Assembly (NCBI RefSeq): GCF_003201595.1 | Contig: NZ_QJJS01000004.1 | Coordinates: 62,001-126,000 of the forward strand | Direction: 5' to 3' | Length of the DNA: 64,000 bases | DNA from: Sphaerotilus hippei | GTDB lineage: Bacteria > Pseudomonadota > Gammaproteobacteria > Burkholderiales > Burkholderiaceae_C | Shown here: positions 13,585-35,174 of the stretch, piece by piece | How positions within the stretch are numbered: position 1 is the stretch's first letter | Layout of the letters: every line of letters begins with the position of its first letter | The notes under the pieces: generated by a model | Seen by the model: only the letters and a program-made list of their open reading frames with translations | The model's database searches: none | Told to the model about the DNA's origin: nothing | Program-made: the position numbers and the translations under genes

Positions 13585-13606
13585 GACTGAATCCACGGCA
13601 ACACCC

Positions 13607-13630: not shown

Positions 13631-13659
13631 TCCCCCACAGCGCAGACGGAGATCCTCAC

Positions 13660-14139: not shown

Positions 14140-14147
14140 GGCCGCGG

Positions 14148-14175
14148 GGACACCGGCGATCCCCTGCCGGTGTCC
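14148..14175 (+). terminator. 10-bp hairpin after hcp
   Basis: GGACACCGGC pairs with GCCGGTGTCC around an 8-nt loop, 9 bp after the hcp stop. There is no T-run, so partial termination or 3'-end protection of hcp mRNA is more likely than a full stop; tssE begins 30 bp later. Confidence 0.55.
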
Positions 14176-14205
14176 TGACCCGATTCCCCACTCCGACCGC
14201 GCTCC

Positions 14206-17503: not shown

Positions 17504-17513
17504 AGGACGCAGC

Positions 17514-20243
17514 ATGGACATCGACATCCGCACCCTGCTGGGCCGCCTCAACCCCGAGTGCCGCCACGCGATGACCCAGGCCGCCGAGCTGTGCGTGCGG
17601 CAGACCCATTTCCATGTCGACCTCGAACACCTGCTGAGCTGCCTGCTCGAGCCGCCGGCGCCCGATGTCGCCCGGGTGCTGCAGGCCTTCCAGATCCGGC
17701 CCGAGGCGCTGCAGGCGCAGCTGCAGCGCAGCCTCGACCAGTTCAAGCGAGGCAACGGCCGCACGCCGGCGCTGTCGCCGCATTTCGCGCCCTGGTTCCA
17801 GGAGGCCTGGCTGCTCAGCTCGATGCTGCTGGGCGAGCAGCAGGTGCGCTCGGGCACGCTGCTGCTCGCGCTGCTGGAGGTCGACAGCCTGCGCGGCCTG
17901 CTGGTCGACGCCGCCCCCGGCCTGCTCGACATCCCGCGTGCCGCGCTGCGCGAGCAGCTCGCGCCGCTGCTGGCCCGCTCGGCCGAGGACGCCGGCGGGG
18001 CGACCCGGGCACCGGCACCCGGTGGTGCCGGCACGACCGATGCGGCCGCGGCGGAGGAGCCCGGCGCCCGCATGCCCGGCCTCGGCGAGCCGGGCCGCTC
18101 GACCAGCCCGTCGCTGGACCAGTACACCGTCGACCTGACCGCGCAGGCCCGCGAAGGCCGCATCGACCCGGTGCGCGGGCGTGACGCCGAGATCCGCCAG
18201 ATCATCGACATCCTGCTGCGCCGGCGCCAGAACAACCCCATCCTCACCGGCGAGGCCGGGGTCGGCAAGACCGCGGTGGTCGAGGGCTTTGCGCAGCGCG
18301 TGGTCGCGGGCGACGTGCCCCCGGCACTGGCCCAGGTGTCGGTGCGCACGCTCGACCTGGCACTGCTGCAGGCGGGCGCGGGCGTGAAGGGCGAGTTCGA
18401 GAACCGGCTCAAGTCGGTCATCGCCGAGGTCAGGGCCTCGGCCACGCCGGTGATCCTGTTCATCGACGAGGCCCACCAGCTCATCGGCGCCGGGGGGGCC
18501 GAGGGCCAGGGCGACGCGGCCAACCTGCTCAAGCCGGCGCTGGCGCGCGGCGAGCTGCGCACCATCGCCGCGACCACCTGGGCCGAGTACAAGCGCTACG
18601 TCGAGCGGGACCCCGCGCTGGCGCGGCGCTTCCAGGTCGTCAAGGTCGAGGAGCCCGAGCCCGAGCTGGCCATCGAGATGCTGAGGGGCATGGTGCAGAC
18701 GCTGCAGGCCCACCACGGCGTCGAGATCCTCGACGAGGCGGTGCGCGAGGCGGTGCGGCTGTCGCACCGCTACATCACCGGCCGGCAGCTGCCCGACAAG
18801 GCCATCAGCGTGCTCGACACCGCCTGCGCGCGCGTGGCGGTGGGCCAGAGCGGCACGCCCGAGGCGCTGGAGACGCTGACCCGCACGATCGACACGCTGG
18901 GCGCACGCATCGCCGTGCTGCGCCGCGAGCAGGCCACCGGCACGCCACGCCAGGACCAGATCACCGCGCTGCAGGCCGAGGTGCAGGCGCTGGGCCGCCG
19001 CCGCGACACGCTGCAGGCGCGGCTCGACGAGGAGCGCCGCACGGTGGCCGAGATCATCGCGCTGCGCCGCGCCATCACCCGCGCGCTGGACGAGCCCCCG
19101 GTGGTCGGCGAGGACCCCGAGGGCGATGACGGCGCGGTCGACCCGGCCGTGCAGCTGCAGCGCCTGAACAAGGGGCTCGAGGCCTTGCAGGAGGAGGATC
19201 CGCTGGTGCCGGTCTGCGTCGACGCCGGCACGGTGGCCGGCGTGATCTCGGGCTGGACCGGCATCCCGGTGGGCCGCATGCTGGCCGACGAGCTGCACGG
19301 CATCCTGAACCTGAAGGAGCGCATGGCCGAGCGGGTGGTCGGCCAGGACGATGCGCTGGACACGATCGCGCGGCGCGTGCGCACCTTCCGCGCCCACCTC
19401 GACGACCCCGGCAAGCCGGTGGGCGTGTTCATGCTGGTGGGCCCCAGCGGCGTGGGCAAGACCGAGACCGCCTGCGCGCTGGCCGACCTGCTCTACGGCG
19501 GCGAGCGCCACCTGGTCACGGTCAACATGTCGGAGTTCCAGGAGGCCCATTCGGTCTCCAGCCTGAAGGGGGCGCCCCCGGGCTACGTCGGCTACGGCCG
19601 CGGCGGGGTGCTGACCGAGGCGGTGCGTCGCCGGCCCTATTCGGTGGTGCTGCTCGACGAGATGGAGAAGGCCCACCCCGACGTGCTGGAGCTGTTCTTC
19701 CAGGTCTTCGACAAGGGCGTGATGGACGACGGCGAAGGGGTGCAGGTCGACTTCCGCAACACGGTCATCCTGCTGACCTCCAACGCCGCCCAGGACCTCA
19801 TCACCGACGCCTGCGGCCCGGGACGCCGGCCGGCGCCGGCGGCACTGGTCGAGCGGCTTCGACCCGAGTTGCAACGCCGTTTCAGCCCCGCTTTTCTCGG
19901 CCGCCTGGTGCTGGTGCCCTACTACCCTCTGGGTGATGTGCAGATCCGCCGCATCGTCGAACTCAAGCTGGAGCGCCTGGCCCAGCGCTTCGCCAGCCAC
20001 CACCACGCCCGCTTCAGCTGGGACGAGGCGGTGCTAGCCCACATCACCGCACGCTGCACCGAGGTGGACAGCGGCGCGCGCAACGTCGACGACATCCTGA
20101 CGCAGTCGGTGCTGCCCGAAGTGTCGACCCTGGTGCTCGAGCACCTGTCGATGGCCGAGCCGTTCTCGGCCATCCACATGGCGCTCGACGCCGGCGGCCG
20201 CTTCACCTTCGGCTTCGACGCCGCACCGGCCGGGGCCGCCTGA
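17514..20243 (+). CDS. tssH: T6SS sheath-recycling AAA+ ATPase TssH (ClpV)
   Basis: Unfolds the contracted TssBC sheath for reuse. It has 909 residues in ClpB order: an N domain (residues 1-150, with FHVDLEHLLSCLL); a first AAA+ module with Walker A GEAGVGKT near residue 246 and Walker B ILFIDEAHQLIG; a coiled middle region around 450-530; and a second AAA+ module with GPSGVGKTETA near 642 and VVLLDEMEKAHP. Start 17514 follows the tssG stop by 10 bp. It overlaps the vgrG start by one base. Confidence 0.96.
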   Translation: MDIDIRTLLGRLNPECRHAMTQAAELCVRQTHFHVDLEHLLSCLLEPPAPDVARVLQAFQIRPEALQAQLQRSLDQFKRGNGRTPALSPHFAPWFQEAWLLSSMLLGEQQVRSGTLLLALLEVDSLRGLLVDAAPGLLDIPRAALREQLAPLLARSAEDAGGATRAPAPGGAGTTDAAAAEEPGARMPGLGEPGRSTSPSLDQYTVDLTAQAREGRIDPVRGRDAEIRQIIDILLRRRQNNPILTGEAGVGKTAVVEGFAQRVVAGDVPPALAQVSVRTLDLALLQAGAGVKGEFENRLKSVIAEVRASATPVILFIDEAHQLIGAGGAEGQGDAANLLKPALARGELRTIAATTWAEYKRYVERDPALARRFQVVKVEEPEPELAIEMLRGMVQTLQAHHGVEILDEAVREAVRLSHRYITGRQLPDKAISVLDTACARVAVGQSGTPEALETLTRTIDTLGARIAVLRREQATGTPRQDQITALQAEVQALGRRRDTLQARLDEERRTVAEIIALRRAITRALDEPPVVGEDPEGDDGAVDPAVQLQRLNKGLEALQEEDPLVPVCVDAGTVAGVISGWTGIPVGRMLADELHGILNLKERMAERVVGQDDALDTIARRVRTFRAHLDDPGKPVGVFMLVGPSGVGKTETACALADLLYGGERHLVTVNMSEFQEAHSVSSLKGAPPGYVGYGRGGVLTEAVRRRPYSVVLLDEMEKAHPDVLELFFQVFDKGVMDDGEGVQVDFRNTVILLTSNAAQDLITDACGPGRRPAPAALVERLRPELQRRFSPAFLGRLVLVPYYPLGDVQIRRIVELKLERLAQRFASHHHARFSWDEAVLAHITARCTEVDSGARNVDDILTQSVLPEVSTLVLEHLSMAEPFSAIHMALDAGGRFTFGFDAAPAGAA

Positions 20244-22282
20244 TGCGCACCGACTTCAGGCAGGACGGCGCGTTCATGCAGGTCAGCACGCCCTTCGGGG
20301 CCGACGTGCTGCTGCTCGACGCGATGGAGGCCAGCGAAGGCCTGTCGGAGCTGTCCAGCCTGACGCTGGACATGCGCTCGGCCGACACCGCGCTGGACGC
20401 CAGCCGCATCATCGGCCAGCCGGTCACCGTCACGCTGCAGGTCGGCGAGGGCCCGAAGCGCCACTTCAACGGCATCGTGGTGCGTTTTGTCCACACCGGT
20501 GGCGACCGCGAGTTCTCGCACTACCGCGCCGAGGTCGCGCCCCGGCTGTGGCTGCTGACGCTCAGCCGCGACCGGGCGATCTGGCAGAACCAGAGCGCCG
20601 CCGAGATCGTCAAGGCGGTGCTGGGCCGCTTCGGGGTCGGCTTCGACGACCGGCTCAGCGGCAGCTACGGCGCCATCGAGTACTGCGTGCAGCACGACGA
20701 GACCGCGTTCGACTTCATCTCTCGCCTGATGGAGGCCGTGGGCATCTTCTACTTCTTCAGCAGCTCCGACGGCGACCACCAGATGGTGCTGGCGGACGCG
20801 GCCGGCGCGCACGTCGACTGCCCCGATGGCGCCGCCGTGCGCTTCCTGCCCGCGACCGGGCCGCGCCAGCCCACCGACACCATCACCAGCTTCGAGCTCG
20901 AGCACCGGCTGGTGCTGCAGAAGCACACGCTGAGCGACTTCGACCCGCTGCAGCCCGGCACGGCGCTGAAGACCGAAGCCAGCGGCACGCTGGGCAAGGG
21001 AGAGGTCTTCGAATGGCCGGCCGGGCACCTGACGGTCAGCGCCGGCACCGCGCTGGCGAAGCTGCGGGTGCAGGCCAGCCAGGTCGACAGCCAGGTGCTG
21101 CGCGGCGACGGCCATGTCTACCCCTTCGCGGCCGGCACGCGCTTCACGCTGTCCGGGCATTTCCGCAGCACGCTCAACACCACCCATGTGCTGCGCCGCG
21201 TGCGCCACACCGTGCGTGACGGAGGCTACCGCAACCACTTCGAGGCCTTTGCCGCGAGCCTGCCCTTCCGCGCACCGCTGGACACGCCGCGCCCGCGGGT
21301 GCTGGGCAGCCAGACGGCCACCGTGGTCGGCCCGTCCGGCGAGGAGATCTGGTGCGACCAGCATGGCCGCATCAAGGTCCAGTTCCACTGGGACCGGCTG
21401 GGCCGCAACGACGAGAACAGCTCCTGCTGGGTGCGCGTGATGCAGGCCTCGGCCGGCGCGGGCTTCGGCACGCTGAACCTGCCTCGCATCGGCCAGGAGG
21501 TGGTGATCACCCATGTCGACGGCGATCCGGACCGCCCGCTGGTGACCGGCTGCGTCTACAACGGCACGCACGCCACGCCGGTCACGCTGCCAGCCCACCA
21601 GACCCAGACGGTGCTGCGGACCCGCTCGTCCAAGCAGGGCACGGCCGGCAACGAGATCCGCCTGGAGGACAAGAAGGACAGCGAGGAGTTCTACCTGCAT
21701 GCCCAGAAGGACATGAAGGTCGAGATCGAGAACGACCTGAGCGTGACCCTGACCGAAGGCAGCGAGACCCGCACGCTGGAGAAGGGCGACCGCACCATCG
21801 AGGTCAGGACCGGCAAGGAGGTCCACAGCGTCAAGGGCACGCGCGAGCTGACCGTCACCGGTGACGAGACCCGTGCCAACGAGGCCGGTTTCAAGCACAC
21901 CGTCTCGGGCGACTACACGCTCACCGTCGATGGTGACCTGGTGCTCGACATCGGCGGCACCATCCTCATCAAGTCGGCCAAGAGCATCACGGTGCAGTCG
22001 GGCACGACGCTCACCCACAAGGCCGGCAGCTCGCTGAGCAACGAGGCGGCCACCGCCCTGAGCAACGAAGCCGGCACCGCGCTCACCAACAAGGCCGGCA
22101 CGTCGCTGACCAACCAGGCCGGCACGTCGCTGACCAACAAGGCCAGCCTCGGCCTGGTCAACCAGGCCGGCACGACGCTGGACAACAAGGGCGCCATGAT
22201 CAACAACAAGGCCTCGGCGATGCAGACCGTCGACGGCGGCGGCATGCTCACCCTCAAGGGCGGGCTGGTGAAGATCAACTGA
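20243..22282 (+). CDS. vgrG: T6SS spike protein VgrG (TssI) with octapeptide-repeat beta-helix
   Basis: Trimeric spike at the tip of the Hcp tube, 679 residues. It begins with the gp27-like part. The gp5/OB-fold linker follows near residues 370-450 (TVVGPSGEEIWCDQHGRIKVQFHW, cited as positions 354-377), with the WVRVMQASAGAGFG and DGDPDRPLVTG motifs. The C-terminal needle contains about eight tandem eight-residue units of the type NKAGTSLT (residues about 584-655). It ends in a DUF2345-like GGGMLTLKGGLVKIN. No extra enzyme domain is fused, so effectors probably ride on it through the following genes. Confidence 0.95.
   Translation: MRTDFRQDGAFMQVSTPFGADVLLLDAMEASEGLSELSSLTLDMRSADTALDASRIIGQPVTVTLQVGEGPKRHFNGIVVRFVHTGGDREFSHYRAEVAPRLWLLTLSRDRAIWQNQSAAEIVKAVLGRFGVGFDDRLSGSYGAIEYCVQHDETAFDFISRLMEAVGIFYFFSSSDGDHQMVLADAAGAHVDCPDGAAVRFLPATGPRQPTDTITSFELEHRLVLQKHTLSDFDPLQPGTALKTEASGTLGKGEVFEWPAGHLTVSAGTALAKLRVQASQVDSQVLRGDGHVYPFAAGTRFTLSGHFRSTLNTTHVLRRVRHTVRDGGYRNHFEAFAASLPFRAPLDTPRPRVLGSQTATVVGPSGEEIWCDQHGRIKVQFHWDRLGRNDENSSCWVRVMQASAGAGFGTLNLPRIGQEVVITHVDGDPDRPLVTGCVYNGTHATPVTLPAHQTQTVLRTRSSKQGTAGNEIRLEDKKDSEEFYLHAQKDMKVEIENDLSVTLTEGSETRTLEKGDRTIEVRTGKEVHSVKGTRELTVTGDETRANEAGFKHTVSGDYTLTVDGDLVLDIGGTILIKSAKSITVQSGTTLTHKAGSSLSNEAATALSNEAGTALTNKAGTSLTNQAGTSLTNKASLGLVNQAGTTLDNKGAMINNKASAMQTVDGGGMLTLKGGLVKIN
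22016..22207 (+). repeat. Tandem 24-bp repeats in vgrG
   Basis: Eight consecutive 24-bp units encode the octapeptide series HKAGSSLS, NEAATALS, NEAGTALT, NKAGTSLT, NQAGTSLT, NKASLGLV, NQAGTTLD, NKGAMINN. They are in frame with vgrG, so loss or gain of units would change spike needle length without a frameshift. Confidence 0.85.
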
Positions 22283-22292: not shown

Positions 22293-23015
22293 ATGCACGC
22301 TGCCACCCACCCCACGATCGACGCCGGCCCGACCGACGCACGGCCCGTCGTGCTCGAGGAGCACGACGACGGCGGCCGGCTGCTGTCGAGCACCGAGCTC
22401 GTCGACGGCCTGCCGCACGGCCGCATGCAGCGCTACGGCCCCGAAGGCCGGCTGCAGATGGAGGCCTGTTATGTGCAGGGCCGCCTCGACGGCCTGCTGT
22501 GCCTGCATGGCGAGCAGGGCGAGATCGTGCAGAAGGCCCAGTACCGGCAGGGCCTGCAGCACGGGCTGACCCGCATCTACGCGATGCAGCGCTGCATCGC
22601 CGAGCAGCGCTACGTCGCCGGCCAGCTGCACGGCGAGAGCGTGATGTTCGACGACGCCGGCCAGCCGTCGGCGCGGCTGCGCTACGTCGAGGGCCGCCTC
22701 GAAGGCCAGGCCGTCTTCCTGCAGCAGGGCCGGGTGGTGCGCAAGGCGAACTACCGCAACGGCCTGCTCGACGGCGAGTCGACCGACCTCGACGCGGAGG
22801 GCACGGTGATCCAGATCGCCCACCACGTGGCCAACGTGCTGCACGGCCCGACCCGGCGCTACTGGCCCGACGGCGGCCTGATGGACGAGGTGGTCTACCG
22901 CATGGGCAAGCCCGTGGCCCCGCCCGCCCGCTTCGACCAGAAGGGTCGCCCGCTCGCCGCCGACGAGGCCACGCCGGGCGTGCTGGCCCGTCTCGAGAAA
23001 CTCATCCGGGGCTGA
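22293..23015 (+). CDS. MORN-variant (YwqK-like) repeat protein downstream of vgrG
   Basis: A 240-residue cytoplasmic protein made of MORN-like units of about 20-24 residues (for example GLPHGRMQRYGPEGRLQMEA at about 40-59, then GRLDGLLCLHGEQGEIV, GQLHGESVMFDDAG, NGLLDGESTDLDAEG). This pattern is often labelled YwqK-family antitoxin. It lies 10 bp after vgrG and 3 bp before the PAAR-like gene, so it probably serves the spike cargo as adaptor, chaperone or immunity protein (inference). No signal peptide is seen. Its partner toxin is not evident in the next two genes. Confidence 0.7.
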   Translation: MHAATHPTIDAGPTDARPVVLEEHDDGGRLLSSTELVDGLPHGRMQRYGPEGRLQMEACYVQGRLDGLLCLHGEQGEIVQKAQYRQGLQHGLTRIYAMQRCIAEQRYVAGQLHGESVMFDDAGQPSARLRYVEGRLEGQAVFLQQGRVVRKANYRNGLLDGESTDLDAEGTVIQIAHHVANVLHGPTRRYWPDGGLMDEVVYRMGKPVAPPARFDQKGRPLAADEATPGVLARLEKLIRG

Positions 23016-23018
23016 ACC

Positions 23019-23405
23019 ATGGGACAACAGGTCTGCACCGGCGCGATGACGCAATGCACCTTCGGGGTCGCGCCGGGTTCGCTGATGGTGCTGCCGGTGA
23101 GCCTGGTGATGACCGGCGCCCCGGCGGCCAACATCATGGACAACAAGCCGCTGGTCAACGTGCTGCCCTTCGGCATGTGCCAGTCCATGGCCAACCCGAT
23201 GGTGGCGGCCGCGTCGGCCGCCGCGATGGGCGCGCTGGTGCCCATGCCCTGCCTGCCGATGACCACCGCCCCCTGGGTGCCGGGCGCACCCACCGTGCTG
23301 CTGGGCAACATGCCGGCACTGAACAACAGCTCCAAGCTGATGTGCATGTGGGGCGGCGTCATCTCGATCAACGTGCCCGGCCAGTTCACCGTGATGGTGC
23401 CCTGA
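23019..23405 (+). CDS. PAAR-like tip protein (DUF4280 type)
   Basis: A 128-residue protein with the DUF4280/PAAR-like pattern: CTGAMTQCTFG at the N terminus, APAANIMDNKPLVNVLPFGMC (residues about 34-54), PMPCLPMTTAPWVPGAPTVL, NMPALNNSSKLMCMWGG. Conserved cysteines and the small glycine-rich beta structure suggest a tip that caps VgrG, like PAAR proteins. No C-terminal toxin extension is present. Its place right after vgrG supports this role; no other PAAR gene is in the locus. Confidence 0.8.
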   Translation: MGQQVCTGAMTQCTFGVAPGSLMVLPVSLVMTGAPAANIMDNKPLVNVLPFGMCQSMANPMVAAASAAAMGALVPMPCLPMTTAPWVPGAPTVLLGNMPALNNSSKLMCMWGGVISINVPGQFTVMVP

Positions 23406-23424: not shown

Positions 23425-23805
23425 ATGCAATACCGCTACACCCTGACCCGCCGGCTGCTGGCCGTGGGCACCATCAGCCTGCTGCTGCTGCTGACCCTGC
23501 TCTTCCTGCTGGGCGTGCAGATCGGCCGGCTGATGGCCGAGCCCGGCGGCCCGCCGGCCGCACCGGGCCTGGCCACGTTCGCGCCGGTCGTGCCGGAGCC
23601 GCTCGCCGTGCCGGCCCCGCCCGGGGCGGCCGCCCCGGACCAGCGCACCGCCCTGGCGGACCTCTCCTTCGTCGGCGACGCCGCCGGCAAGACCGCCGAC
23701 CGGGCCGCCGACACTGCATCGCGCCGCGCCGTCGAGGCCTGGCAGTCGGCCCGTCCGGCACCGGGTGCGGTCGAGCCGGTCACGGCCTCCTTCACCGAGC
23801 GCTGA
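23425..23805 (+). CDS. Small single-span inner-membrane protein in the T6SS locus, unknown function
   Basis: A 126-residue protein with one strong hydrophobic segment (about residues 10-30, leucine-rich), then a Pro/Ala-rich region predicted to face the periplasm. It ends in a helical, charged stretch (TADRAADTASRRAVEAWQ). I recognise no family. It lies 19 bp after the PAAR-like gene and before the binding-protein gene. It could be an immunity protein for a periplasm-acting effector, or a helper of the transport module. Confidence 0.55.
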   Translation: MQYRYTLTRRLLAVGTISLLLLLTLLFLLGVQIGRLMAEPGGPPAAPGLATFAPVVPEPLAVPAPPGAAAPDQRTALADLSFVGDAAGKTADRAADTASRRAVEAWQSARPAPGAVEPVTASFTER

Positions 23806-23846: not shown

Positions 23847-24812
23847 ATGAACTCCCCCCACGACTCCCGGCCCGTGACGCCTGTCGCCACGCCGCTGCAC
23901 CGCCGCCGCCTGCTGGTCCGGCTCGCCGGCAGCGCGCTGTGCACGGCCCTGCCACTGCTGGCCACGCGCGCGGCCGCTGCCGCACCGGCGTCGGCCCCGC
24001 TGGCACCGACCACCGCCCCGGTCGCACCGGCCTCGGCGAGCACGCCGCCGGACCTGGTGCGCAGCGCGGACGGCCGGCTGCTGGCGCCCGACATCGCCCG
24101 CATCGTCGCGCGCGGCGAGCTGGTGGTGGCGATGCTGGGCGTGGACACGCCGCCCTTCTTCCAGAGGGTCGACGAGCAGCTGGTCGGACTCGATGTCGAC
24201 ATGGCGCGCGCGATCGCCCATGAGCTGAAGGTCAAGGTGCGCTTCAACCGCGAGGCGCGCAGCTTCAACGAGGTGGTCGACGTGATCGCGCGCAAGGAGG
24301 CCGACCTGGGCATCAGCAAGCTGTCGCGCACGCTGGCACGGGCGCAGCTGATCCGTTTCTCCGACCCTTACCTGCGGCTCAACCATGCGCTGGTGCTCAA
24401 CCGGGTGGCGTTTGCCAAGCTCGCGCTCGACCGGCCGGTGCAGGCGGTGGTGCGCAACTTCCGCGGCAGCATCGGCGTGATCGCCAAGTCCTCGTTCGCC
24501 GACTACGCGACCCGCAACTTCCCGCTCGCCACGATCCGCACCTACCCCGGCTGGCCGGAGGTGATCGACGCGGTGCACCGGGGCGAGGTGGTCGGCGCCT
24601 ACCGCGACGAGCTGGAGATCAAGCGCATGCTCAAGGGCAACCCGACCGCGGCGCTGACGCTGCGCACGGTCACGCTGAAGGACCTGGAGGACTCGCTGGC
24701 GATCGCCGTGGGCGTGTCCGACCCGGTGCTGCTGGCCTTCGTCAACCAGTACCTCGCGCAGCGCAGCGACAAGCTCGACATCGAGCGGGTCCTGAAGGCT
24801 CTCGATCATTGA
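23847..24812 (+). CDS. Periplasmic amino-acid-binding protein (SBP_bac_3 family), orphan
   Basis: A 321-residue secreted binding protein of the ABC amino-acid type. The N terminus has a twin-arginine-like HRRRLLVRLAG followed by a hydrophobic stretch and an Ala-rich cleavage region, so Tat export is possible. The mature part has VDTPPFFQ, LVGLDVDMARAIA, the substrate-binding LSRTLARAQLIRFSDPYLR and GVIAKSSFADY segments. The Arg in the LSRT region and the Asp in YRDELE are typical ligands for an amino acid. No ABC permease or ATPase gene is nearby; SDF-type transporter genes follow instead, and the whole module lies inside the T6SS operon. Confidence 0.8.
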   Translation: MNSPHDSRPVTPVATPLHRRRLLVRLAGSALCTALPLLATRAAAAAPASAPLAPTTAPVAPASASTPPDLVRSADGRLLAPDIARIVARGELVVAMLGVDTPPFFQRVDEQLVGLDVDMARAIAHELKVKVRFNREARSFNEVVDVIARKEADLGISKLSRTLARAQLIRFSDPYLRLNHALVLNRVAFAKLALDRPVQAVVRNFRGSIGVIAKSSFADYATRNFPLATIRTYPGWPEVIDAVHRGEVVGAYRDELEIKRMLKGNPTAALTLRTVTLKDLEDSLAIAVGVSDPVLLAFVNQYLAQRSDKLDIERVLKALDH

Positions 24813-24828
24813 ACCCCGGAGCCTGAAG

Positions 24829-26109
24829 ATGCGCATCGATGCCAAGACCCTGCAAGCCCTGGTGCTGAACCCCTGGGTCGTGCTGGGCAGCCTCGCCGCC
24901 GGATTCCTGCTGGGCGCCCAGGCGCCCGAGGTGGCCCTGAAACTCGGCTTCGTCGGCGACATCTACGTCGACCTGATGAAGATGATCGTGCTGCCCTTCA
25001 TGGTGTCGGCGGTGATCTTCAGCCTGCAGCGCCTGTTCCAGGAAGGCGGCACGGCCCGCATCCTCGGCCGGGTCGCGGTGGTGTTCATCGCCTTCGCGGC
25101 CGTGGCCACCGTCGTGGGGGCGCTGACGCTGCTGACGATGCGCCCCGGCGCGGACCTGTCGCAGGAGACGCTGGCCACCTTCGGTCACATCGTCGGCGGT
25201 GACGTCGGCTCCAACGACACGGCGATGGAGCTCAACGGCGTCGACCCGGTGCACAAGGGCATCGGCGTGGTCGACGTGCTGGTCAACCTGGTGCCGGCCA
25301 ACATCTTCGCGGCGCTGGCCAGCGGCGACACGCTCAAGTCGCTGGTCTTCGCGATGCTGTTCGGCTTCGCGGTCGGCCAGGTGCCTGCGCGGGTGTCCGA
25401 AGGGCTGACCCGCTCGCTCGACACCATCTACCAGAGCTGCCAGACGCTGACGCGCTGGCTGAACTTCCCGCTGCCGCTGGTGCTGCTGTGCATGAGCGCG
25501 GCGCAGCTGGCCAAGACCGGCGTGGAGCCGCTGGTGGCGATGACGCAGTTCGTGCTGGCCTTCGTCGTCGCGTCGCTGATCGCGCTGGGGGTCGCGCTGC
25601 TGGTGCTGTGGCGGCGCAGTGCCGACGACTTCCCGACCACGCTGCAGGCGCTGCGCGGCCCCTTCGCCCTGGCGCTGGCCACACGCAGCAGCGCCACCTG
25701 CATGCCGGTGATGATCGAGTCGCTGGCCGACCGGCTGGGCTTCGCCCGCTCGCGCGTCGAGCTGCTGGTGCCGCTGAGCGTGTCGCTGCTGCGCATCGGG
25801 CCGATGCTCTACTACGTCTGCGCCACGCTGTTCATCGCCCAGCTCTACGGCCGCTCGCTCGGGGTCGGCGAGGTCGTGCTGGTGATGGCCGCCTCGGTGC
25901 TGGCCGGCTTCGCCTCGGCCGGCATGAGCGGGCTGGTGACGATCTCGCTGACCGGCATGGCCTGCGGCTACCTGGGCCTGCCCTTCGAGGCGGCCTTCAT
26001 CCTGTTCGTCGCGGTCGATCCGCTGTGCGACATGCTGCGCACCCTCGTCATCGTCATCGGCAACACCGCCGCGGTGTCGCTGATCTGTCCCCGTCCCTTG
26101 AAGATCTAG
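24829..26109 (+). CDS. Diverged dicarboxylate/amino acid:cation symporter (SDF family), copy 1
   Basis: A 426-residue membrane protein of the glutamate/aspartate transporter fold. It has about eight hydrophobic segments plus hairpin loops. By-eye alignment to GltPh shows the substrate-contact Asp and Arg of TM8 kept (DPLCDMLRT). The sodium-site Asn and Asp that follow read Ile and Asn. The NMDGT motif of TM7 reads LRIGP, and the HP1 serine string reads RSSAT. Transport of acidic amino acids is therefore plausible, but the coupling ion may differ. It is followed 9 bp later by the racemase gene. Confidence 0.82.
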   Translation: MRIDAKTLQALVLNPWVVLGSLAAGFLLGAQAPEVALKLGFVGDIYVDLMKMIVLPFMVSAVIFSLQRLFQEGGTARILGRVAVVFIAFAAVATVVGALTLLTMRPGADLSQETLATFGHIVGGDVGSNDTAMELNGVDPVHKGIGVVDVLVNLVPANIFAALASGDTLKSLVFAMLFGFAVGQVPARVSEGLTRSLDTIYQSCQTLTRWLNFPLPLVLLCMSAAQLAKTGVEPLVAMTQFVLAFVVASLIALGVALLVLWRRSADDFPTTLQALRGPFALALATRSSATCMPVMIESLADRLGFARSRVELLVPLSVSLLRIGPMLYYVCATLFIAQLYGRSLGVGEVVLVMAASVLAGFASAGMSGLVTISLTGMACGYLGLPFEAAFILFVAVDPLCDMLRTLVIVIGNTAAVSLICPRPLKI

Positions 26110-26118
26110 GAGATCACC

Positions 26119-26817
26119 ATGCCCTGCATCGGAGTTCTTGGAGGCATGGGGCCCGCCGCGACGGTGGACTTCATGGCCAAGCTGGTCGCGTTGACTCCGG
26201 CCCGGAGGGACCAGGACCACCTGCCGATGGTCGTGGCCAACCTGCCGCAGGTGCCGGACCGCAGCGCCGCCATCCTCGGCCGCGGCCCCGATCCGCTGCC
26301 CAGCCTGCAGCGGGGCATCGATCTGCTGAACCACTCCGACGTCGGCGTGGTCGTGATCCCGTGCAACTCCTCGCACCACTGGTACGCGCAGCTCAGCGCC
26401 TCGAGCCAGGCGCCCATCCTGCACATCGCGCAGGCCTGCGTGCGCAAGGTGCCCGACGGCGGGCGCACCTGCGTGCTGGCCACCCGCGGCGCGCTGGCCT
26501 CGGGCTTCTACCAGCGCGAGCTGGCCGCGCGCGGCATCGACTGGGAGATCCCCGACGGCGAGCGGGAACAGCCGCTGGTCGACGAGACCATCCGCCTGGT
26601 CAAGGCCGGCCAGCCCGAACAGGCCGGCCGGCGGTTGCAGCAGATGCTGGCCCATGCCCACGGCCGCGGCGTCGAGGTGGTCATCATGGCCTGCACCGAG
26701 CTGCCGCTGGCGGCCAGCCACGCCGACACCCACGGCCTGCTGCTGATCGACAGCACGCTCGAGCTCGCCCGCAGCACCGTCGACTACGCGCTGCACGCGG
26801 GCTGGAACCACTGCTGA
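26119..26817 (+). CDS. Aspartate/glutamate racemase-family enzyme inside the T6SS operon
   Basis: A PLP-independent amino-acid racemase of 232 residues, cytoplasmic. The N terminus is GVLGGMGPAATVDF. The first catalytic cysteine lies in VIPCNSSHHWY (about residue 82) and the second in VIMACTELPL (about residue 194), so the two-cysteine mechanism is intact. The family interconverts L and D forms of Asp, Glu or broader substrates (YgeA/RacX type). The short spacing to the upstream symporter (9 bp) and the downstream one (20 bp) suggests one transport-and-racemisation unit. Actual substrate unknown. Confidence 0.88.
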   Translation: MPCIGVLGGMGPAATVDFMAKLVALTPARRDQDHLPMVVANLPQVPDRSAAILGRGPDPLPSLQRGIDLLNHSDVGVVVIPCNSSHHWYAQLSASSQAPILHIAQACVRKVPDGGRTCVLATRGALASGFYQRELAARGIDWEIPDGEREQPLVDETIRLVKAGQPEQAGRRLQQMLAHAHGRGVEVVIMACTELPLAASHADTHGLLLIDSTLELARSTVDYALHAGWNHC

Positions 26818-26837
26818 GCGGCCGCGCCCCTGCCACC

Positions 26838-28328
26838 ATGCCCGCCTTCCTGCGCCAGACCTCGCACCCCCTGCTGCTCATGGCCTGTGCCGTGGCCGGG
26901 GCGCTGCTGGGCATGCTCAGCCCGGCCTGGAGCGTGGCCGCGGGGGCGATCGGTCGCCTGGCCGTCAACCTGCTGGACATGGCCGCGCTGCCGCTGCTGG
27001 GCGTGGCCACCGCCTTCGGGCTGCGCAAGCTGATGGCGCTGCCGCAGCGCGGCCGCCGCGCCGGCCTGGTGCTGGCCACCGCCGCGCTGACGCTGTGGTT
27101 GTGCGGCCTGGTCGGTGCGCTGGCAGGCCAGGCGGCGGGCCTGGGCCGCCACCTGGCGCCGCACGAGCTGGAGCGGCTGGGCCAGCTGGTGCAGCAGGTG
27201 GGTGGCCAGGCGGAACAGACTGGCGTGACGCTGCGGCCCGCGCGGCATGAGGATCGTCACGCGGGCGTGCAGGACGACCCGCCCGAGGATCCGACCGCCG
27301 CGCAGCGCTCCACGGTCCGCCTGCCCGACAACGTCTACGCGACGCTGGCCCGTGGTGAGCTGCCCGCGGTCATGTTCTGCGCGCTGGCCTTCGGCCTCGC
27401 CTTCGCGATGCTCGATCGCGGCCGCACCCAGGCCTTCTCGGTGCAGCTGGAGACGATCTACCGCGCCCTCGAGCGGCTGATCCAGCAGGCCAACCACCTG
27501 CTGCCGCTGCTGGTCTTCGGCATGGCCGCCCACCTCGCGGCCCGCACCGACACCGGCACGCTGATCCTGCTGGGCGGGCTGTTCGGCGCGCTGCTGCTGG
27601 CCTCGCTGTTCGTCGGCGGCCTCGCGCTGGCGCTCGTCTGCCGCCAGGCGCGCTGCTCGACCGGGCAGGCGCTCGCGGCGCTGAAGGTGCCGCTGCTGAT
27701 CAGCCTGGTCTCGCCCAGCCCGGTCTCGGCCATCCCGCTGACCATCGATGCGCTGAGCGCCAAGCTGGGTTTCGCCCGCGGCGTGGTGGAGCTGCTGGTG
27801 CCCACCGGCGCGGTGTTCCTGCGCGCGGGGGGCGCGATCCACATCGCCGTGGTCGTGGTCTTCGTGGCCCAGCTCTACGGCCGCAGCCTCGGCCCGCTCG
27901 AGCTGCTGCTGCTGGGGTCGATGGCCGCGGCGGCGGCGCTGACGGTGACCGGCACCGGGCCGTACGGCACGCTGTCGGCCGCGGCGGTGGTGCTGGCCTG
28001 GCTGCGCCTGCCCCCCGAGGCGGTGCTGCCGGTGCTGCTGGTGGTCGACCGGCTGTGCGACGGCGCCCGCAACCTGACCTCGCTGCTGTGCATCGCCGCC
28101 GTCACCGCGGTGGTCAGCGGCGGGCTGCCGTCCGAATCGCGTGAATCCCCCCTGCCGACCGCGGCCGGACCGGTGCGGCTGGTGATCGGCCGTCCGGCCG
28201 CCGCCGCGGCGCTGGCCTGCGTGCTGCTGGCCGGTGCGCTGTCGATGCTGATCGGCGTGGGCGTCGGCCTGCGCCAGGCACGCGGCGGCTCGCCGGCCGC
28301 GGCCCAGAACACGGAGCTCCCTCGATGA
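26838..28328 (+). CDS. Diverged SDF-family transporter, copy 2
   Basis: A 496-residue paralogue of the transporter at 24829. The shared block LGFAR...VELLVP...LLR/FLR...VAQLYGRSLG proves the relationship. A hydrophilic insert of about 50 residues (around 110-160) and an extra C-terminal hydrophobic segment are unique to it. NMDGT reads LRAGG, and TM8 reads DRLCDGARN, keeping the Asp and Arg but losing the following Thr and the sodium-site residues. It could form mixed assemblies with copy 1 or act on the racemase product. The start at 26838 was chosen for the normal N terminus. Its stop overlaps tssJ by 4 bp. Confidence 0.75.
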   Translation: MPAFLRQTSHPLLLMACAVAGALLGMLSPAWSVAAGAIGRLAVNLLDMAALPLLGVATAFGLRKLMALPQRGRRAGLVLATAALTLWLCGLVGALAGQAAGLGRHLAPHELERLGQLVQQVGGQAEQTGVTLRPARHEDRHAGVQDDPPEDPTAAQRSTVRLPDNVYATLARGELPAVMFCALAFGLAFAMLDRGRTQAFSVQLETIYRALERLIQQANHLLPLLVFGMAAHLAARTDTGTLILLGGLFGALLLASLFVGGLALALVCRQARCSTGQALAALKVPLLISLVSPSPVSAIPLTIDALSAKLGFARGVVELLVPTGAVFLRAGGAIHIAVVVVFVAQLYGRSLGPLELLLLGSMAAAAALTVTGTGPYGTLSAAAVVLAWLRLPPEAVLPVLLVVDRLCDGARNLTSLLCIAAVTAVVSGGLPSESRESPLPTAAGPVRLVIGRPAAAAALACVLLAGALSMLIGVGVGLRQARGGSPAAAQNTELPR

Positions 28329-28876
28329 GCCACCTGCCCTTCTTCTCGCGTGCGCCCGCCGCGGGCCGGCTGCTGCGCCTGGCCTGCGGCCTGGCCGCCC
28401 TGGCGCTGGCCGGCTGCGGCACGGTCGGCGGGGTCGCCAGCGTGCTGGCCTCCTCGACCGCCAACGCCTTCAGCGCCCCGCCCGGTCCGGCCTACCTCGA
28501 CTGGAAGGGGCTGCTGGTGGTGGCCGATGCCGATGCCAACCAGAACAGTCCGGTCGCGCTGGACATCGTCTTCGTGCGCGACATGGCCACGCTCGAGCGG
28601 CTCGGCGGCCTGAGCGCCGCCCGCTGGTTCGCCACCCGCACCGAACAGCTGAGCACCGACCCGGACGGGCTGACCGTGCGCAGCGTCGAGCTCGTGCCCC
28701 GGCAGGTGCTGCGCCTGCCGGAGAAGGAGCTCGGCTCGCCGCGCGTGGCCGGCGTGCTGCTGTTCGCCGATTACATGACCCCGGGCGAGCATCGTGCCCG
28801 CCTGCCCAAGCTGCCCGACGGCACCCTGGTGCGCCTGGGCGCACGCACCTTCACGCTGAGCGCCCACGCGCTCTGA
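28325..28876 (+). CDS. tssJ: T6SS outer-membrane lipoprotein TssJ
   Basis: Anchors the TssJLM membrane complex to the outer membrane. The 183-residue product has a lipoprotein signal with lipobox LAGC (lipidated Cys31). A transthyretin-like fold is expected from the strands LVVADADANQNSPVALDIVFVRD (positions about 62-84) and LLFADYMTPG. The start overlaps the preceding transporter stop (ATGA), which physically ties the inserted transport module into the T6SS transcript. Confidence 0.88.
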   Translation: MSHLPFFSRAPAAGRLLRLACGLAALALAGCGTVGGVASVLASSTANAFSAPPGPAYLDWKGLLVVADADANQNSPVALDIVFVRDMATLERLGGLSAARWFATRTEQLSTDPDGLTVRSVELVPRQVLRLPEKELGSPRVAGVLLFADYMTPGEHRARLPKLPDGTLVRLGARTFTLSAHAL

Positions 28877-28890: not shown

Positions 28891-30222
28891 ATGAACTCCC
28901 GCACCCCGACTCCTCCCGAACGCATCCAGTGGCATGAAGGCATGCTGCTGGGTCCGCAACACTTCCAGCAGCTGCAGGCCCGGATCGACGGCCTGGCGAG
29001 CTGGCATCTGCTGGCCGCCGCGCCGCTGGCCTGGGGCCTGCGCCACCTCGAGATCGACACCGGCCTGCTGGCCACCGGCGTGCTGCGGGTGCTGCGGCTC
29101 GAGGCGGTGATGCCCGATGGCAGCGCCGTCTGGCACGACGCCCGCGAGGCCGCCCACGGCAGCCTGGAGATCGACCTCGGCCCGCAGCGCGACGCGCTCG
29201 AGGCGGGGGCGCTCGACATCCACCTGACGCTGCCGTGGGCCCGCTCGATGCGCAACCCGAGCGTGCCCTCGCGCTTCCGGGCGATCGCCGAGCTGCCGGT
29301 CGAGGACGAGGTGTCCGACGGCGAGCCGGCCGATCTGCCGCGCCTGCGCCCGCAGCTGGGCCTGGCCGCGGGCGGGCTGCCCCCCTCGCTGTGGCAGTCG
29401 ATGCGGCTGTGCACCGTGGTCAAGGACAACGAGCTGATCCGCCTGGGCGACGAGCTGCCGGCGCTGCAGGCGCTCGACCGTGAGCACCCGCTGTGGCGCC
29501 GGGCCTGGGCGCTGTGCGGCCAGCTGCGGGGCAAGGCCGCCTACCTGGCGCGCCAGACCCAGCTGCCCTCGTCGCGGCTGGAAGACCGCCTCGCGCTGCT
29601 CGAGCAGCGGGAACGGCTGGGCGCGCTGCTCGCGCCGCTGGCGCCGCTGGAGGCGCTGCTGCAGGCCCAGGCACCCGCGCCGCTGACGCTCTACCTGGCG
29701 CTGTGCGCGGCCCTCGGCCCGCTGGCCACGCTGCGGGCCGGCGCGATGCCGCTGCTGCCGCCGGCCTACGAGCATGCCCGCCCGCGGGCGGCCTTCGAGG
29801 CGGTGTTCGCCGCCCTCGAGGACGCGCTGCAGGCCGTCAGCCAGGAGCACCGCCTGCAGCCCTTCGACTTCCGCGAGGGCCTCTTCGTGCTGGCCCTGCA
29901 GCCCGAATGGATCGGCGCCCGGCTGGTGGTCGGCCTGCGTGGCCAGAGCGAGCGCGAGCTGACCGCCTGGATGGACGGTGCGGTGATCGGCTCGGCCTCG
30001 GCCTGGACCTCGCTGCGCGAGCGCCGGGTGCTGGGCGCCGCCCGTTCGCGCATCGAGGCCGCGCCCGAGCTCGGCCTGCAGGCCAGCAACGGCTACACGC
30101 TGTTCGCCATCGAGGCGAGCGCCCCGCTGGTGCAGCCCGGCGAGCCGCTGCTGATCGCGAACGCCAACGAGTCCCATGCCGCCCAGCGCCCGCATGAGGC
30201 GATGCTGTTCGTGAAGGGATGA
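28891..30222 (+). CDS. tssK: T6SS baseplate-membrane connector TssK
   Basis: Links the baseplate wedges to the TssJLM membrane complex; 443 residues, typical length. The N terminus carries the family hallmark IQWHEGMLLGPQHFQQ. Other segments include RFRAIAELPVEDE, PPSLWQSMRL, and the C-terminal SNGYTLFAIE. It begins 14 bp after tssJ and overlaps the tssL start. Confidence 0.95.
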   Translation: MNSRTPTPPERIQWHEGMLLGPQHFQQLQARIDGLASWHLLAAAPLAWGLRHLEIDTGLLATGVLRVLRLEAVMPDGSAVWHDAREAAHGSLEIDLGPQRDALEAGALDIHLTLPWARSMRNPSVPSRFRAIAELPVEDEVSDGEPADLPRLRPQLGLAAGGLPPSLWQSMRLCTVVKDNELIRLGDELPALQALDREHPLWRRAWALCGQLRGKAAYLARQTQLPSSRLEDRLALLEQRERLGALLAPLAPLEALLQAQAPAPLTLYLALCAALGPLATLRAGAMPLLPPAYEHARPRAAFEAVFAALEDALQAVSQEHRLQPFDFREGLFVLALQPEWIGARLVVGLRGQSERELTAWMDGAVIGSASAWTSLRERRVLGAARSRIEAAPELGLQASNGYTLFAIEASAPLVQPGEPLLIANANESHAAQRPHEAMLFVKG

Positions 30223-30986
30223 GCATGTCCGACGCCGTCAACCCGACCGAAGCCGACGATCCGCTGGACGCCGGCCTGCGCCAGTTCCACGAGGCGCTCG
30301 AGCAGGTGCTCGTGCAGTTCCCCGACACCGGCGAGGCCGAGGCGGGCGAGCCGGCGGCCCGCCAGGTGCTGCGTGACCTGCACAACCTGATCGAGCTGCA
30401 GACGGTCAACGAACGCCGCGGCGGCGGCGGCGGCACGGCCGCGCTGGCCGCGCCGGTGCGCTACCTGAAGGCCGCGCTGGCCGACGAGATCCTGCTGAGC
30501 CGGCCGTGGGCCGGACGCCGCGTGTGGCCGCAGCGCCTGCTGGAGGCCGAGATGTTCCGCACCAGCGTGGCCGGGGACCGGGTGCTGGCCGACATCGAAC
30601 GCCTGCTGGCCGACCGGGAGCCGTCGCAGCGCACGCTGGCGCGGCTCTACCTGTTCGCCCTGGCGCTGGGTTTCCAGGGCCGCCTGCGCGGCCAGCCCGA
30701 GATCGGGCGGCTGGCCGGCCTGCGCACCGAGCTGTTCCAGTTCGTCTACCAGCGCACGCCCGAGTCCGGCGCGCGCGACCGCGTGCTGTCCGAGCAGCCC
30801 TACGCCAGCACGCTGTCGCACCTGGCGCCGCTGCACCGCCGCGGGGTCAGCCGCTGGGCGCTGATCGGCGCGATCGTGCTGGCCGGCCTGCTGGTGCTGT
30901 CGGAGCTGCTGTGGCTGTGGCCGACCTGGCCGCTGCGCCAGGCGCTGGACGGCCCGCGCCCCGTCGCCACCGAGGTGTCACGCTGA
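30219..30986 (+). CDS. tssL: T6SS inner-membrane protein TssL (DotU family)
   Basis: Inner-membrane component of the T6SS channel, 255 residues. The cytoplasmic domain shows VRYLKAALADEILLSRPW and RLLEAEMFRT, typical of DotU/TssL, and ends in a single C-terminal membrane anchor (about residues 206-229). There is no fused OmpA-like peptidoglycan-binding domain, so anchoring to the cell wall must come from elsewhere. ATG 30219 overlaps the tssK stop; ATG 30225 is an alternative. Confidence 0.92.
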   Translation: MSMSDAVNPTEADDPLDAGLRQFHEALEQVLVQFPDTGEAEAGEPAARQVLRDLHNLIELQTVNERRGGGGGTAALAAPVRYLKAALADEILLSRPWAGRRVWPQRLLEAEMFRTSVAGDRVLADIERLLADREPSQRTLARLYLFALALGFQGRLRGQPEIGRLAGLRTELFQFVYQRTPESGARDRVLSEQPYASTLSHLAPLHRRGVSRWALIGAIVLAGLLVLSELLWLWPTWPLRQALDGPRPVATEVSR

Positions 30987-31017
30987 TGTCCCCGAACCGC
31001 CTGCCCACGGAGCCGTC

Positions 31018-34000
31018 ATGTTCCTGAAGGACCACCTTGTCCTCGCCAGTCTCGGCGCACTGATCCTGCTGGTGCTGGGCGTGCTCGCCCTCGTGATCCG
31101 CGCCGCGGCCCGGTCCGAGCCGGCCGCCGCCGGCCCGCGCGCGCCGGTGCGCCTGCGCTCGGACACGCTGCGGGCCTCGTTCCGCCAGGCGGTCGAGCTG
31201 ATCGAGTCGAGCATGGCCAGCCGCGCCAAGCGTTACCAGCTGCCCTGGGTGCTGGTGCTCGACGAAGGCGACGGCAGCAGCGTGCTGCCGCTGGCGCAAT
31301 CGGGCATCGCCAGCGCGCTGGGCACCGATGCCGCCGGCGCCGCCGCCGCCCAGGGCCTGACCTGGCACTTCTTCGACCAGGGGGTGGTCATCGACGTGCA
31401 GGGCGCCTACCTCGGCGGTGCCGACGAAGGGGAGCAGACCGGCGAGCAGCCCTGGGACCAGTTCCTCGGGCTGTGCCGCGAATACCGCCCGGCACGGCCC
31501 TTCGACGCGATGGTCGTCACCGTGCCGGCCGCGCTGCTGCTGGATCACCACGCCGACGCCCGGCTCGAGCTCGCCCGGCTGGCCCAGCGCGCCAACCGGC
31601 GTGTCTGGCTGGCGCAGAACCGCTTCGCGATGCGCTTCGCGCTCTACGTCGTCGTGTCGGGCTGCGAACACCTGCCGGGCTTCTCGGCCTACGCCCGCGC
31701 GCTGCCCGACCTGCTGCGCAAGTCCATGCTGGGCTGGTCCTCGCCGCACGACCTGACGCTGACCTACCGCGCCGACTGGGTCGAGGAAGCGCTGCGGCAG
31801 ACCCGCCGCACGCTGGCCGACTCGACGGCCGAACTGCTGGCCCTGGGCGCGCCGGACACCGACGCCACCGCCTGTTTCCTGCTGCCGGCCCGCATCGACG
31901 CGCTGCGCCCGCAGCTGCAGCTCTTCGTCGACGAGCTGATGCGGCCGAGCTCCTACCACGAGCCCTTCATCCTGCGCGGCCTGTACTTCACCGGCGATGC
32001 CAGCGAGGTGGCCGAACGCCTGGCCCGCAGCGCCGGCCACCCGGCACCGGGCGCGGCCGACACGTTCGACGGCTTCCCCGCCACCCGGCCGGTCGCGCTG
32101 GCCGACGGCCTCATGCCGGCCGAGGTCGACCTCGGCACCCCGGTACTGCCCGCCGAGGCCCGCCAGCCGGTCTTCCTGCGCGACCTGTTCGAGCAGAAGG
32201 TGTTCCGCGAATACGGCCTGACCCGGCCGTCGGGCACGCAGCAGCTGCAGCGCCCGCTGCTCGGGCGGGGCCTGCGCTGGGCCGCCATCGGCCTGGTCGG
32301 GGCCTGGTGCGTGGGCCTGGGCGTGGGGTCGCTGATCCTGCACCGCCAGAGCACCGTGCTGACGCAGGTGCTGGGCCGACTGCAGAGCGACACCGACACC
32401 CAGCTGCGCGCCGGCCTGCGTGGCGAGACGATGCCCGCGGAGTGGCATCGCCAGCGGGCGCTGGGCCTGCTGCAGCTGATGGAGCAGATGGACCGCCAGC
32501 GCCTCTGGTCGCTGTTCATGCCCGGCTCCTGGCCGGTGATCGACTCGCTGCCGCACCGGGTGCGCGACCGGCTCGAGCAGGCGTTCGGCGACATCGCCGT
32601 CAGCACGCTGCGCAACGCGCTGTACGAGCGCACCGCCCGGCTGACCGGCGTGGCGCAGGACCCGAGCACCGGGGCGCTGGTCAGCGGCGCGCCCTGCAGC
32701 GACCCGGCCGGCCTGCCGGGCCCGGCCGCCGGCGCCGCCCCCCACATGACGCTGGGCTTCGAGGACCTGGGCAGCTTCCAGCGCCTGCTGGCCTACACCG
32801 CCGCGGCCGAGCAGCTCGACCAGGCCACGGCCGCGCTGCAGCGCCTGCTCGATCCGGCCCGTCCGGCCGACGGTGCCGACCTCAGCCTGCTGGTGCGGGT
32901 CACGCTGGGCGCGGAGCTGCCGGGCCGGCCCGACCATGCCGCGGCGCTGTTCCGCTCGCGGGCCGCGCAAGGCTCGGGCGTGGCCACGACGGCGATGCAG
33001 CAGGCCCTGCAATGCAGCCTGCGCCGGGTCGCCACGGCGCTGCTGGCCGATGCCTTCGAAGGCAACGATCTGCTGGAAGCCCAGCGTGCGGTGGTCGAGC
33101 AGCTCGAGGCCGCCGCCGGCGGGGAAGGCGACGAGACCGCGGCGCAGACGCTGGCCTCCTGGCACGCGCTGCACGACACGATCCGCAGCCAGCAGGCGCT
33201 GCTGGCGCGTGGCAACGGCACCTGGATGCACCAGACCAGCTTCCAGCCGGGCGCCGCCTGGGACCGGACGCTGGGCCGCATCGCCGCCAACCGGCTGCTG
33301 GGCCCGGACACCGCCCGCGCGCTGCAGGCCGACAGCGAGGCCGCCTTCCAGCGCTTTTCCGTCGCGCTGGCCGAACAGACCGGCGCCGAAGGCGAGACCG
33401 GCGCGGTGTGGAACGACAAGACCCAGCGCTGGGACATGGCACCGGGCCTGACGGCGCTGCACGGCGCGCTGACCGCCCTGTTCAACCAGCCCTACATGAA
33501 CGGCACCAGCGAGCGACCGCTGCCCGGCAGCGTCGAGCCGATGATCAGCTGGGACCTGGCACGACTGGACCAGGCGCTCGCGGTGGGCGAGCAGCGCAAG
33601 CGTTTCCAGGCCGAGCTGCTGGGGCGCTTTCCGCCCGACATGCAGGGCGCGGTGGCCCAGCTGGTCGACGGCCAGTTCGCCCGGCTGATCAGCGACCACC
33701 TCAGCTCGGCGCTGGTGCCGGGGGCCCGACTGGCGCCGCCGGACGCCGGCACGGCCGATGCCGAACGCAGCCGGCTCGCCCGCATCCAGGGGCTGCTGGT
33801 CGAACTCGGTGCGCAGCCGGTGCTCGAGGCGCTGCGCAACCTGCAGCTGCGCGACGCGTCGGCCCGGCTGCGCCAGCTCGACGAGGCGCTGGACCGCTCG
33901 GAGCTCTACGCGCCGCAGCGGGGCAACTTCAGCCAGTGGCGCGGTGAACGCGGCCCGGCGCTGGCCGGCTTCGGGCTGGGGGACGGCGCCGCGCTGGCGG

Positions 34001-35151: not shown

Positions 35152-35174
35152 AGCCCCTCCGAGACGGAACCGCC

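Follow-up and report, generated by a model that had tools for sequence, protein, structure and literature searches.

Two described systems come close to the locus analyzed here. In Acinetobacter baumannii, the gene of a racemase, RacK, which makes D-Lys, lies in the cluster of a type VI secretion system (T6SS). The other is T6SS-b of Paraburkholderia phymatum STM815, for which Hug et al. (2021), in the parts of their paper considered here, give the SecReT6 class i4a and describe a block of genes (Bphy_5985-5992) that occurs in 15 other strains too, in one Janthinobacterium cluster without the racemase (PMC8356804). Its symporters were proposed as possible dicarboxylate sensors, and T6SS-b expression was highest on citrate and low on glutamate and succinate (PMC8356804). 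We analyzed a stretch of 64,000 nucleotides of Sphaerotilus hippei (contig NZ_QJJS01000004.1, positions 62,001 to 126,000; hereafter the window), in which a T6SS operon carries the same block: genes for an amino-acid-binding protein of the SBP_bac_3 family (SBP), an SDF-fold membrane protein (SDF1), an Asp/Glu-type racemase (RAC) and a divergent SDF-family protein (SDF2). The gene order of the window was matched against that published for T6SS-b, from where the i4a class itself is taken, and is the same: VgrG, YwqK-like, PAAR-like, small gene, 'amino acid ABC transporter', symporter, racemase, symporter (PMC8356804). Results of our comparative analyses in silico suggest that this one T6SS lineage (T6SS-b, SecReT6 i4a type) has the block as a fixed component. 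As to its function, we favor a relay of SBP and SDF proteins that is independent of Na+, handles an acidic amino acid edited by an enzyme of the operon and is coupled to the T6SS, and give this reading a probability of about 0.4.

The initial annotation had placed an orphan amino-acid-binding protein, two SDF-type transporters and a racemase with both catalytic cysteines between the VgrG cassette and tssJ, all within the T6SS transcript. Coordinates and Pfam families confirm this placement (Table 1), and both cysteines (C82 and C192) are present. From vgrG to tssK the genes lie on one strand with intergenic gaps of -4 to +41 bp, including the overlap of SDF2 with the gene downstream, and consensus scans, the only type used, detected nothing resembling a promoter or terminator within positions 20000-31000; a common transcript is thus well in line with the sequence. 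The cluster genes that were scanned gave no match to an ABC permease or ATPase family, so that SBP indeed looks orphan and the block does not have the composition of an ABC amino-acid importer. The label tssJ holds in part: it is backed by the position of the gene, by an N-terminus resembling that of lipoproteins and by orthologues found at the same site, but the product has no Pfam match and only one of five orthologues scanned matches T6SS-SciN, and weakly (E 0.036). The T6SS cluster is otherwise full, as TssB, C, Hcp, E, F, G, H, VgrG, K, L, M and A were all recognized by Pfam or NCBIfam. Since the order SBP-SDF1-(RAC)-SDF2-tssJ recurs across many genera, the arrangement is not due to chance.

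An alignment of SDF1 was used to scan the contigs of 84,980 species, and the best 80 of the 105 relatives found are the 80 loci counted here. A locus was taken as T6SS-linked when at least one core T6SS gene was present in the available sequence. Core T6SS genes were found in 66 of the 80 loci; according to the sequence records, the T6SS-linked loci belong to Burkholderiaceae, Comamonadaceae, Oxalobacteraceae, Alcaligenaceae and others. Two loci have little flanking sequence: L079 shows MORN and DUF4280 genes only, on a short contig, and L083 lies on a 3-kb contig. A search of the same family revealed SDF2 orthologues with 40-42% identity in 3 of 149 other genomes, all three with the whole block in the same T6SS order; in a further genome of the family (G014) SBP and the racemase accompany an SDF1 with a broken frame, and no T6SS match was seen in 40 kb of the contig, which is 48 kb long. 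In the order, SDF1 matches at 1e-50 were obtained in 5 of 399 genomes, each time at the same place in a T6SS cluster. TssK matches were seen in nine of the 399: five, at 45-100% identity, fall in the same five genomes as SDF1, and the remaining four, at 34-39%, have no SDF1 match. As SDF1 and TssK of at least 45% identity coincide in the same five genomes, this T6SS lineage, as sampled here, always carries the block. SDF2 was present in 61/61 T6SS-linked loci with enough sequence and in 0/11 other loci. The block is therefore not found mostly apart from T6SS genes, and the proposed tie to the T6SS stands. Of the expected order SBP-SDF-racemase-SDF, SBP, SDF1 and SDF2 are conserved, but of the 65 T6SS-linked loci that allow a judgment, 46 have the racemase slot filled and 19 have it empty. 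One locus (L066) is a Burkholderiales-like T6SS block in a record titled as an Akkermansia muciniphila metagenome-assembled genome (MAG); the contig is probably mis-binned, and its racemase row has odd residues.

The most constant feature of the block is the pairing of its first two genes. The SBP gene lies directly upstream of SDF1 in 80/80 loci, and a dedicated binding-protein gene beside the carrier is what marks the SBP-dependent secondary transporters (TRAP/TTT). Searches of the class (3 of 274 genomes, own genome included) and of the phylum (6 of 299, own genome and genome G204 included) yielded six far SDF1 relatives from other orders or classes, with 30-46% identity. SBP is adjacent in five of these, the sixth beginning at a contig end, and in one (L143) a second SDF gene is directly preceded by another SBP_bac_3 gene. 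As a control we took 25 ordinary SDF genes, with flanks of 1.5 kb or less; an SBP-like open frame was found near one of them, on the opposite strand. SBP has an N-terminal hydrophobic stretch at residues 22-40, as judged by hydropathy, and the membrane proteins of the block belong to PF00375 only, with no DctQM/TctAB-type subunit. Stand-alone SBP-SDF1 modules also exist, including SBP-SDF1-RAC loci. Going by gene content, the core of the block is an obligate pair of SBP and SDF1, and the racemase is not part of it. Some of the neighborhoods of the pair deserve mention in their own right. In L116, L131 and L111 it stands beside a TAXI-type SBP (NMT1_3) and a TPR-secretin, in the first two also beside a pentapeptide-repeat protein, which is a second secretion-like setting of SBP-SDF1. 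In L119 (2335-8995) a CHASE2 cyclase, a ShlB/FhaC-type outer-membrane protein and a dCache cyclase precede the pair, and in L112 (992-2569) an outer-membrane efflux protein lies near it.

The predicted structure of SDF1 shows the full glutamate-transporter fold, with the SDF domain and the elevator architecture. D401 and R404 are kept, and the Na+ motif is replaced by SLLRIG. We take D401 to be the counterpart of GltPh D394, the contact of the alpha-ammonium group; ordinary DctA-like SDFs have Ser at this position. A basic residue (Arg/Lys) stands inside the Na+ motif of transmembrane segment 7 (TM7) in 95 of 96 SDF1 rows (among which S1_L046 is the SDF2-like protein of locus L046 and L143b the second far SDF) and in 69/69 SDF2 rows, vs. 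0/25 ordinary SDFs. The Asn of the TM7 NxDG motif remains in 2/96 SDF1 and 0/69 SDF2 rows and the Asp in none, and both are present in 25/25 ordinary SDFs. Rows with an internal stop past which the match runs (1 SBP, 1 SDF1, 1 RAC, 7 SDF2) are noisy in these and the other alignment-based counts, the helix count and the SDF1 tree included, because MAFFT dropped the stop sign. With a fixed Arg/Lys in the former Na+ motif, SDF1 is most likely a Na+-independent exchanger of, or receptor for, an acidic amino acid. SDF2 differs further: it has a long loop from about residue 105, an extra C-terminal membrane helix (69/69 by hydropathy) and changes in most substrate-site residues. These features set SDF2 apart from an ordinary second transporter.

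In one clade the racemase is replaced by another enzyme. This clade (18 of the 80 loci plus G204) has Ala at position 401 of SDF1 and Ala/Gly at position 160 of SBP, and is referred to as A401. A Formyl_trans_N protein of 200-odd residues was found in 19/19 A401 loci, never together with a racemase, and its catalytic motif N-x-H-P and the catalytic D are kept in all 19. The 80 loci fall into D401 with racemase (52), A401 with formyltransferase (18) and D401 with neither (10), and into no other class. Residue 160 of SBP is Ser in 61/61 scored D401 loci and Ala/Gly in 18/18 A401 loci. In the 13 T6SS cases the formyltransferase-like gene lies in the tssM-tssA interval; in the six stand-alone cases it is located just 5′ of SBP (four) or one cyclase gene away (two), and class III cyclase genes stand beside the pair in three of the six. 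The tssM-tssA junction is visible in 58 of the 80 loci, and the gene occupies it in 12/12 A401 and 0/46 D401 loci. Among the ten SDF1 columns that separate the two types, five lie in the tip of hairpin 1 (HP1) or in TM8 (post hoc p 1e-4). Residues S160, R165 and D254 of SBP are presumably the ligand residues of family 3 binding proteins, and we assume that residue 160 corresponds to the Ser which contacts the alpha-ammonium group in the lysine/arginine/ornithine-binding protein. SBP and SDF1 of the formyltransferase clade would then each have lost a contact for the free amino group, and this double loss matches the prediction for an N-formyl acidic amino acid as ligand.

The racemase itself passes the NCBIfam model CuyB (NF052483) with 229.8 bits (cut-off 190) and TIGR00035 with 152.7 (cut-off 93.1). 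In the racemase rows C82 is kept in 62/62 and C192, R48 and K162 in 61/62 each. R48 and K162, which we take to be substrate-preference residues, suggest Asp or an analogue as substrate rather than Lys. The cysteate specificity implied by CuyB was not taken as proven: the model passes its cut-off for the far copies L141, L112 and L046 (below it for L145), so that the name may be too narrow. Racemase copies were checked in 24 whole genomes. The six with an in-cluster racemase gave matches of 52-66%. Seven were D401 T6SS genomes with no such gene in the cluster: one of these carries a 54% copy, 5.5 kb upstream of tssB, another three have nothing closer than 37-38% and the last three gave no match at 1e-20. 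The genome of stand-alone L075 holds a 38% copy, and three of ten A401 genomes hold copies of 38-43%. No extra gene that could encode a substitute enzyme appeared in the gene calls of the racemase-less D401 T6SS loci L094, L096 and L105, the picture being less clear or cut in L099, L100, L129 and L058; one D401 locus has a tssM-tssA gap of 1083 bp. Judged by these counts, the racemase is an exchangeable part of the block. The Limnohabitans MAG of L150 (7203-12690, + strand) has its racemase at a distance of 5.5 kb from tssB, preceded by a gene of 1566 aa.

The relay that we favor would work as follows. SBP would capture the ligand, an acidic amino acid or its edited form. A cytoplasmic enzyme, the Asp-type racemase in most loci and the N-formyltransferase-like enzyme in one clade, would edit the amino acid, and SDF1 would exchange the ligand for the enzyme product or sense the one against the other. 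The cell may in this way release, and then read back, an acidic amino acid that it has itself converted to the D- or N-formyl form. SDF2, found only with the T6SS and with its worn substrate site and extra helix, would link the relay to T6SS assembly or activity. The operon, its gene order, the pairing, the loss of the motif and the enzyme swap with matching residue changes can be read from the sequences; Na+ independence, the ligand, the direction of transport, the signaling role and the part played by SDF2 are what we infer.

Several observations weigh against the relay. The enzyme swap is one event, not a repeated one, since A401 forms one branch on the SDF1 tree (FastTree, with long branches) and on the SBP tree. 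Eight D401 loci with room for the gene keep Asp and Ser without an adjacent racemase, one of them having a racemase 5.5 kb upstream of tssB; the binding residues thus follow the formyltransferase clade and not the loss of the racemase. D254 of SBP, which would be expected to contact the ammonium group as well, is kept in most A401 loci, and Ala401 of SDF1 would equally suit a ligand that has no amino group. The far SDF1 relatives are variable at R404 and D401. In L149, where SDF1 is absent, the neighbors of a formyltransferase-like gene encode an SBP_bac_3 protein of 574 aa and a dCache-type cyclase. The TssK family match is absent from seven of ten genomes with a stand-alone SBP-SDF1 which, as such modules exist at all, indicates that the pair does not depend on the T6SS. 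Finally, expression of P. phymatum T6SS-b peaked on citrate and did not rise with glutamate, as far as the considered parts of PMC8356804 tell.

Positions of the block and of its neighbors are given in Table 1. A cyclic di-GMP (c-di-GMP)-I riboswitch (RF01051) ends 168 bp 5′ of tssB, and the T6SS operon may therefore be under c-di-GMP control. The riboswitch was not found in seven other loci in which the upstream side of tssB is available (L034, L036, L039, L042, L045, L047, and L150; minus strand in L039 and L045). Just before the T6SS operon lie also a gene for a 7TMR-DISM-like histidine kinase (8394-10658, - strand), a divergent gene for a NarL/LuxR-type response regulator, recognized by eye (10393-11058, + strand), and a gene for a GGDEF protein (7089-8375, + strand). 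At the other end, a gene of 550 aa 3′ of tssA (36367-38019, + strand) has no Pfam match at E 0.001.

Table 1. Features of the T6SS operon and the embedded block; positions are those of the window.
Feature	Position	Strand	Evidence
c-di-GMP-I riboswitch, 5′ of tssB	11261..11348	+	Rfam RF01051, 69.1 bits (gathering score 35)
tssB, tssC, hcp, tssE, tssF, tssG, tssH, upstream of the block	11517..20243	+	Pfam/NCBIfam
vgrG (TssI)	20243..22282	+	NCBIfam TIGR03361 5e-165
MORN-repeat (YwqK-like) protein, in the vgrG/PAAR-like interval	22293..23015	+	Pfam MORN_2 1.4e-07; same place in relatives
DUF4280 / PAAR-like	23019..23405	+	Pfam PF14107 2.1e-35; NCBIfam IglG PAAR-like 4.4e-18, below cut-off
Small gene, poorly conserved	23425..23805	+	No Pfam match; weak matches in some loci
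SBP, SBP_bac_3 family amino-acid-binding protein, predicted secreted, 321 aa	23847..24812	+	Pfam PF00497 1.6e-16
SDF1, SDF-fold membrane protein, 426 aa	24829..26109	+	Pfam SDF 2.3e-59
RAC, Asp/Glu-type racemase, 232 aa	26119..26817	+	Pfam PF01177 (Asp_Glu_race) 2.8e-41
SDF2, divergent SDF-family protein, 496 aa	26838..28328	+	Pfam PF00375 3.6e-42
Putative tssJ (lipoprotein)	28325..28876	+	Position, lipoprotein-like N-terminus, orthologues in place; 4-bp overlap with SDF2
tssK, tssL, tssM, tssA, downstream of the block	28891..36323	+	Pfam PF05936, PF09850, PF14331, PF06812

The alternative that survives best, though we hold it to be unlikely, is scavenging. Here SBP and SDF1 would import Asp/Glu-like amino acids, lysed prey and plant exudate being possible sources, the racemase would turn D- into usable L-forms, and the linkage to the T6SS would reflect joint expression. 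The protein families are indeed those of amino-acid uptake, R404 and D401 are kept alongside the racemase, structures with bound D-aspartate are known in the SDF family (6r7r), and stand-alone SBP-SDF1-RAC loci occur. Plain nutrition would, however, hardly account for the loss of the Na+-motif residues from both SDF1 and SDF2, for the replacement of the racemase by a formyltransferase-like enzyme, for the worn substrate site of SDF2 or for the fact that no catabolic gene accompanies the block in T6SS loci.

Rather doubtful, in our estimate, is a role in sensing only, in which SBP and SDF1 would act as the receptor of a dicarboxylate or an amino acid from outside the cell, a plant or prey cue that switches the T6SS on, and the enzyme would merely adjust or remove the ligand. 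The proposal of sensing symporters and the citrate effect, in the parts of PMC8356804 considered, agree with it, as do the worn transport motifs, the cyclases near stand-alone copies and, in the window, the riboswitch and two-component pair 5′ of tssB. Yet, the riboswitch was not found in the seven other loci, SBP, SDF1 and SDF2 contain no signaling domain by Pfam, and the product seems to matter, to judge from the enzyme swap and the residue changes that match it. A pure sensor would in any case lie close to the relay reading, and the sequence does not separate the two. It is improbable that the block is a passenger whose position in the operon has nothing to do with T6SS action; stand-alone copies are known, but the block occupies the same place in T6SS loci of several families and SDF2 is found only there. 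The racemase-centered self-protection put forward in the initial annotation, in which T6SS wall effectors would be blocked by a D-amino acid incorporated into peptidoglycan as for RacK, finds its basis in a racemase with both cysteines inside a T6SS cluster and is very improbable, given that the slot is empty in 19/65 loci, that the racemase lacks a visible signal peptide, that R48/K162 suggest an acidic substrate over Lys and that SBP, SDF1 and SDF2 would be left unexplained.

Compared with known systems, the block resembles the RacK locus in that a T6SS cluster holds the racemase gene. A signal sequence is ascribed to RacK in the part of PMC12502697 considered, and RacK makes D-Lys, whereas the racemase of the block looks cytoplasmic (hydropathy revealed no hydrophobic N-terminus) and of Asp type and is often missing. 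With aspartate racemases and the cysteate racemase CuyB (PF01177, TIGR00035, NF052483) it shares the family, the two cysteines, R48 and K162; its substrate is a predicted one. SDF/DAACS transporters (GltPh, EAAT; PF00375) keep NxDG, whereas SDF1 and SDF2 have lost N and D and gained Arg/Lys, and SDF1 has an obligate SBP partner. TRAP/TTT carriers would be alike in outline if SBP delivers the ligand to SDF1, but differ in that the membrane part here is an SDF protein, no TRAP/TTT membrane family being present in the block. Searches of the open-licence PMC literature found the block in PMC8356804 only; of the papers listed for SBP-dependent SDF carriers, none has a title that points to such a carrier, and nothing was found on peptidoglycan editing or a lysine racemase in connection with a T6SS. 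The main text of PMC8356804 does not contain 'formyl...', and the parts of it on which we draw make no mention of SBP-SDF1 pairing outside the T6SS, of the loss of the Na+ site, of an SDF2 confined to the T6SS or of the enzyme swap.

In a more far-reaching version, which is speculative and which we consider unlikely as a whole, SBP-SDF1 would be a third kind of binding-protein-dependent secondary carrier beside TRAP/TTT, made Na+-free by the Arg/Lys and working as an exchanger of precursor and product. The exported form (D- via the racemase, N-formyl via the formyltransferase) would be a private signal or permit, read by SBP, SDF1 and SDF2, that decides when the T6SS is built or fired. What triggers T6SS firing is an open question in many lineages, and here a small-molecule device may lie inside the operon itself. 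As two natural versions exist, differing in the enzyme and in the matching ligand-site residues, the ligand can be guessed and the idea can be tested with purified proteins. If SBP and SDF1 do cooperate, a carrier of the glutamate-transporter type would be supplied by a binding protein in a new manner.

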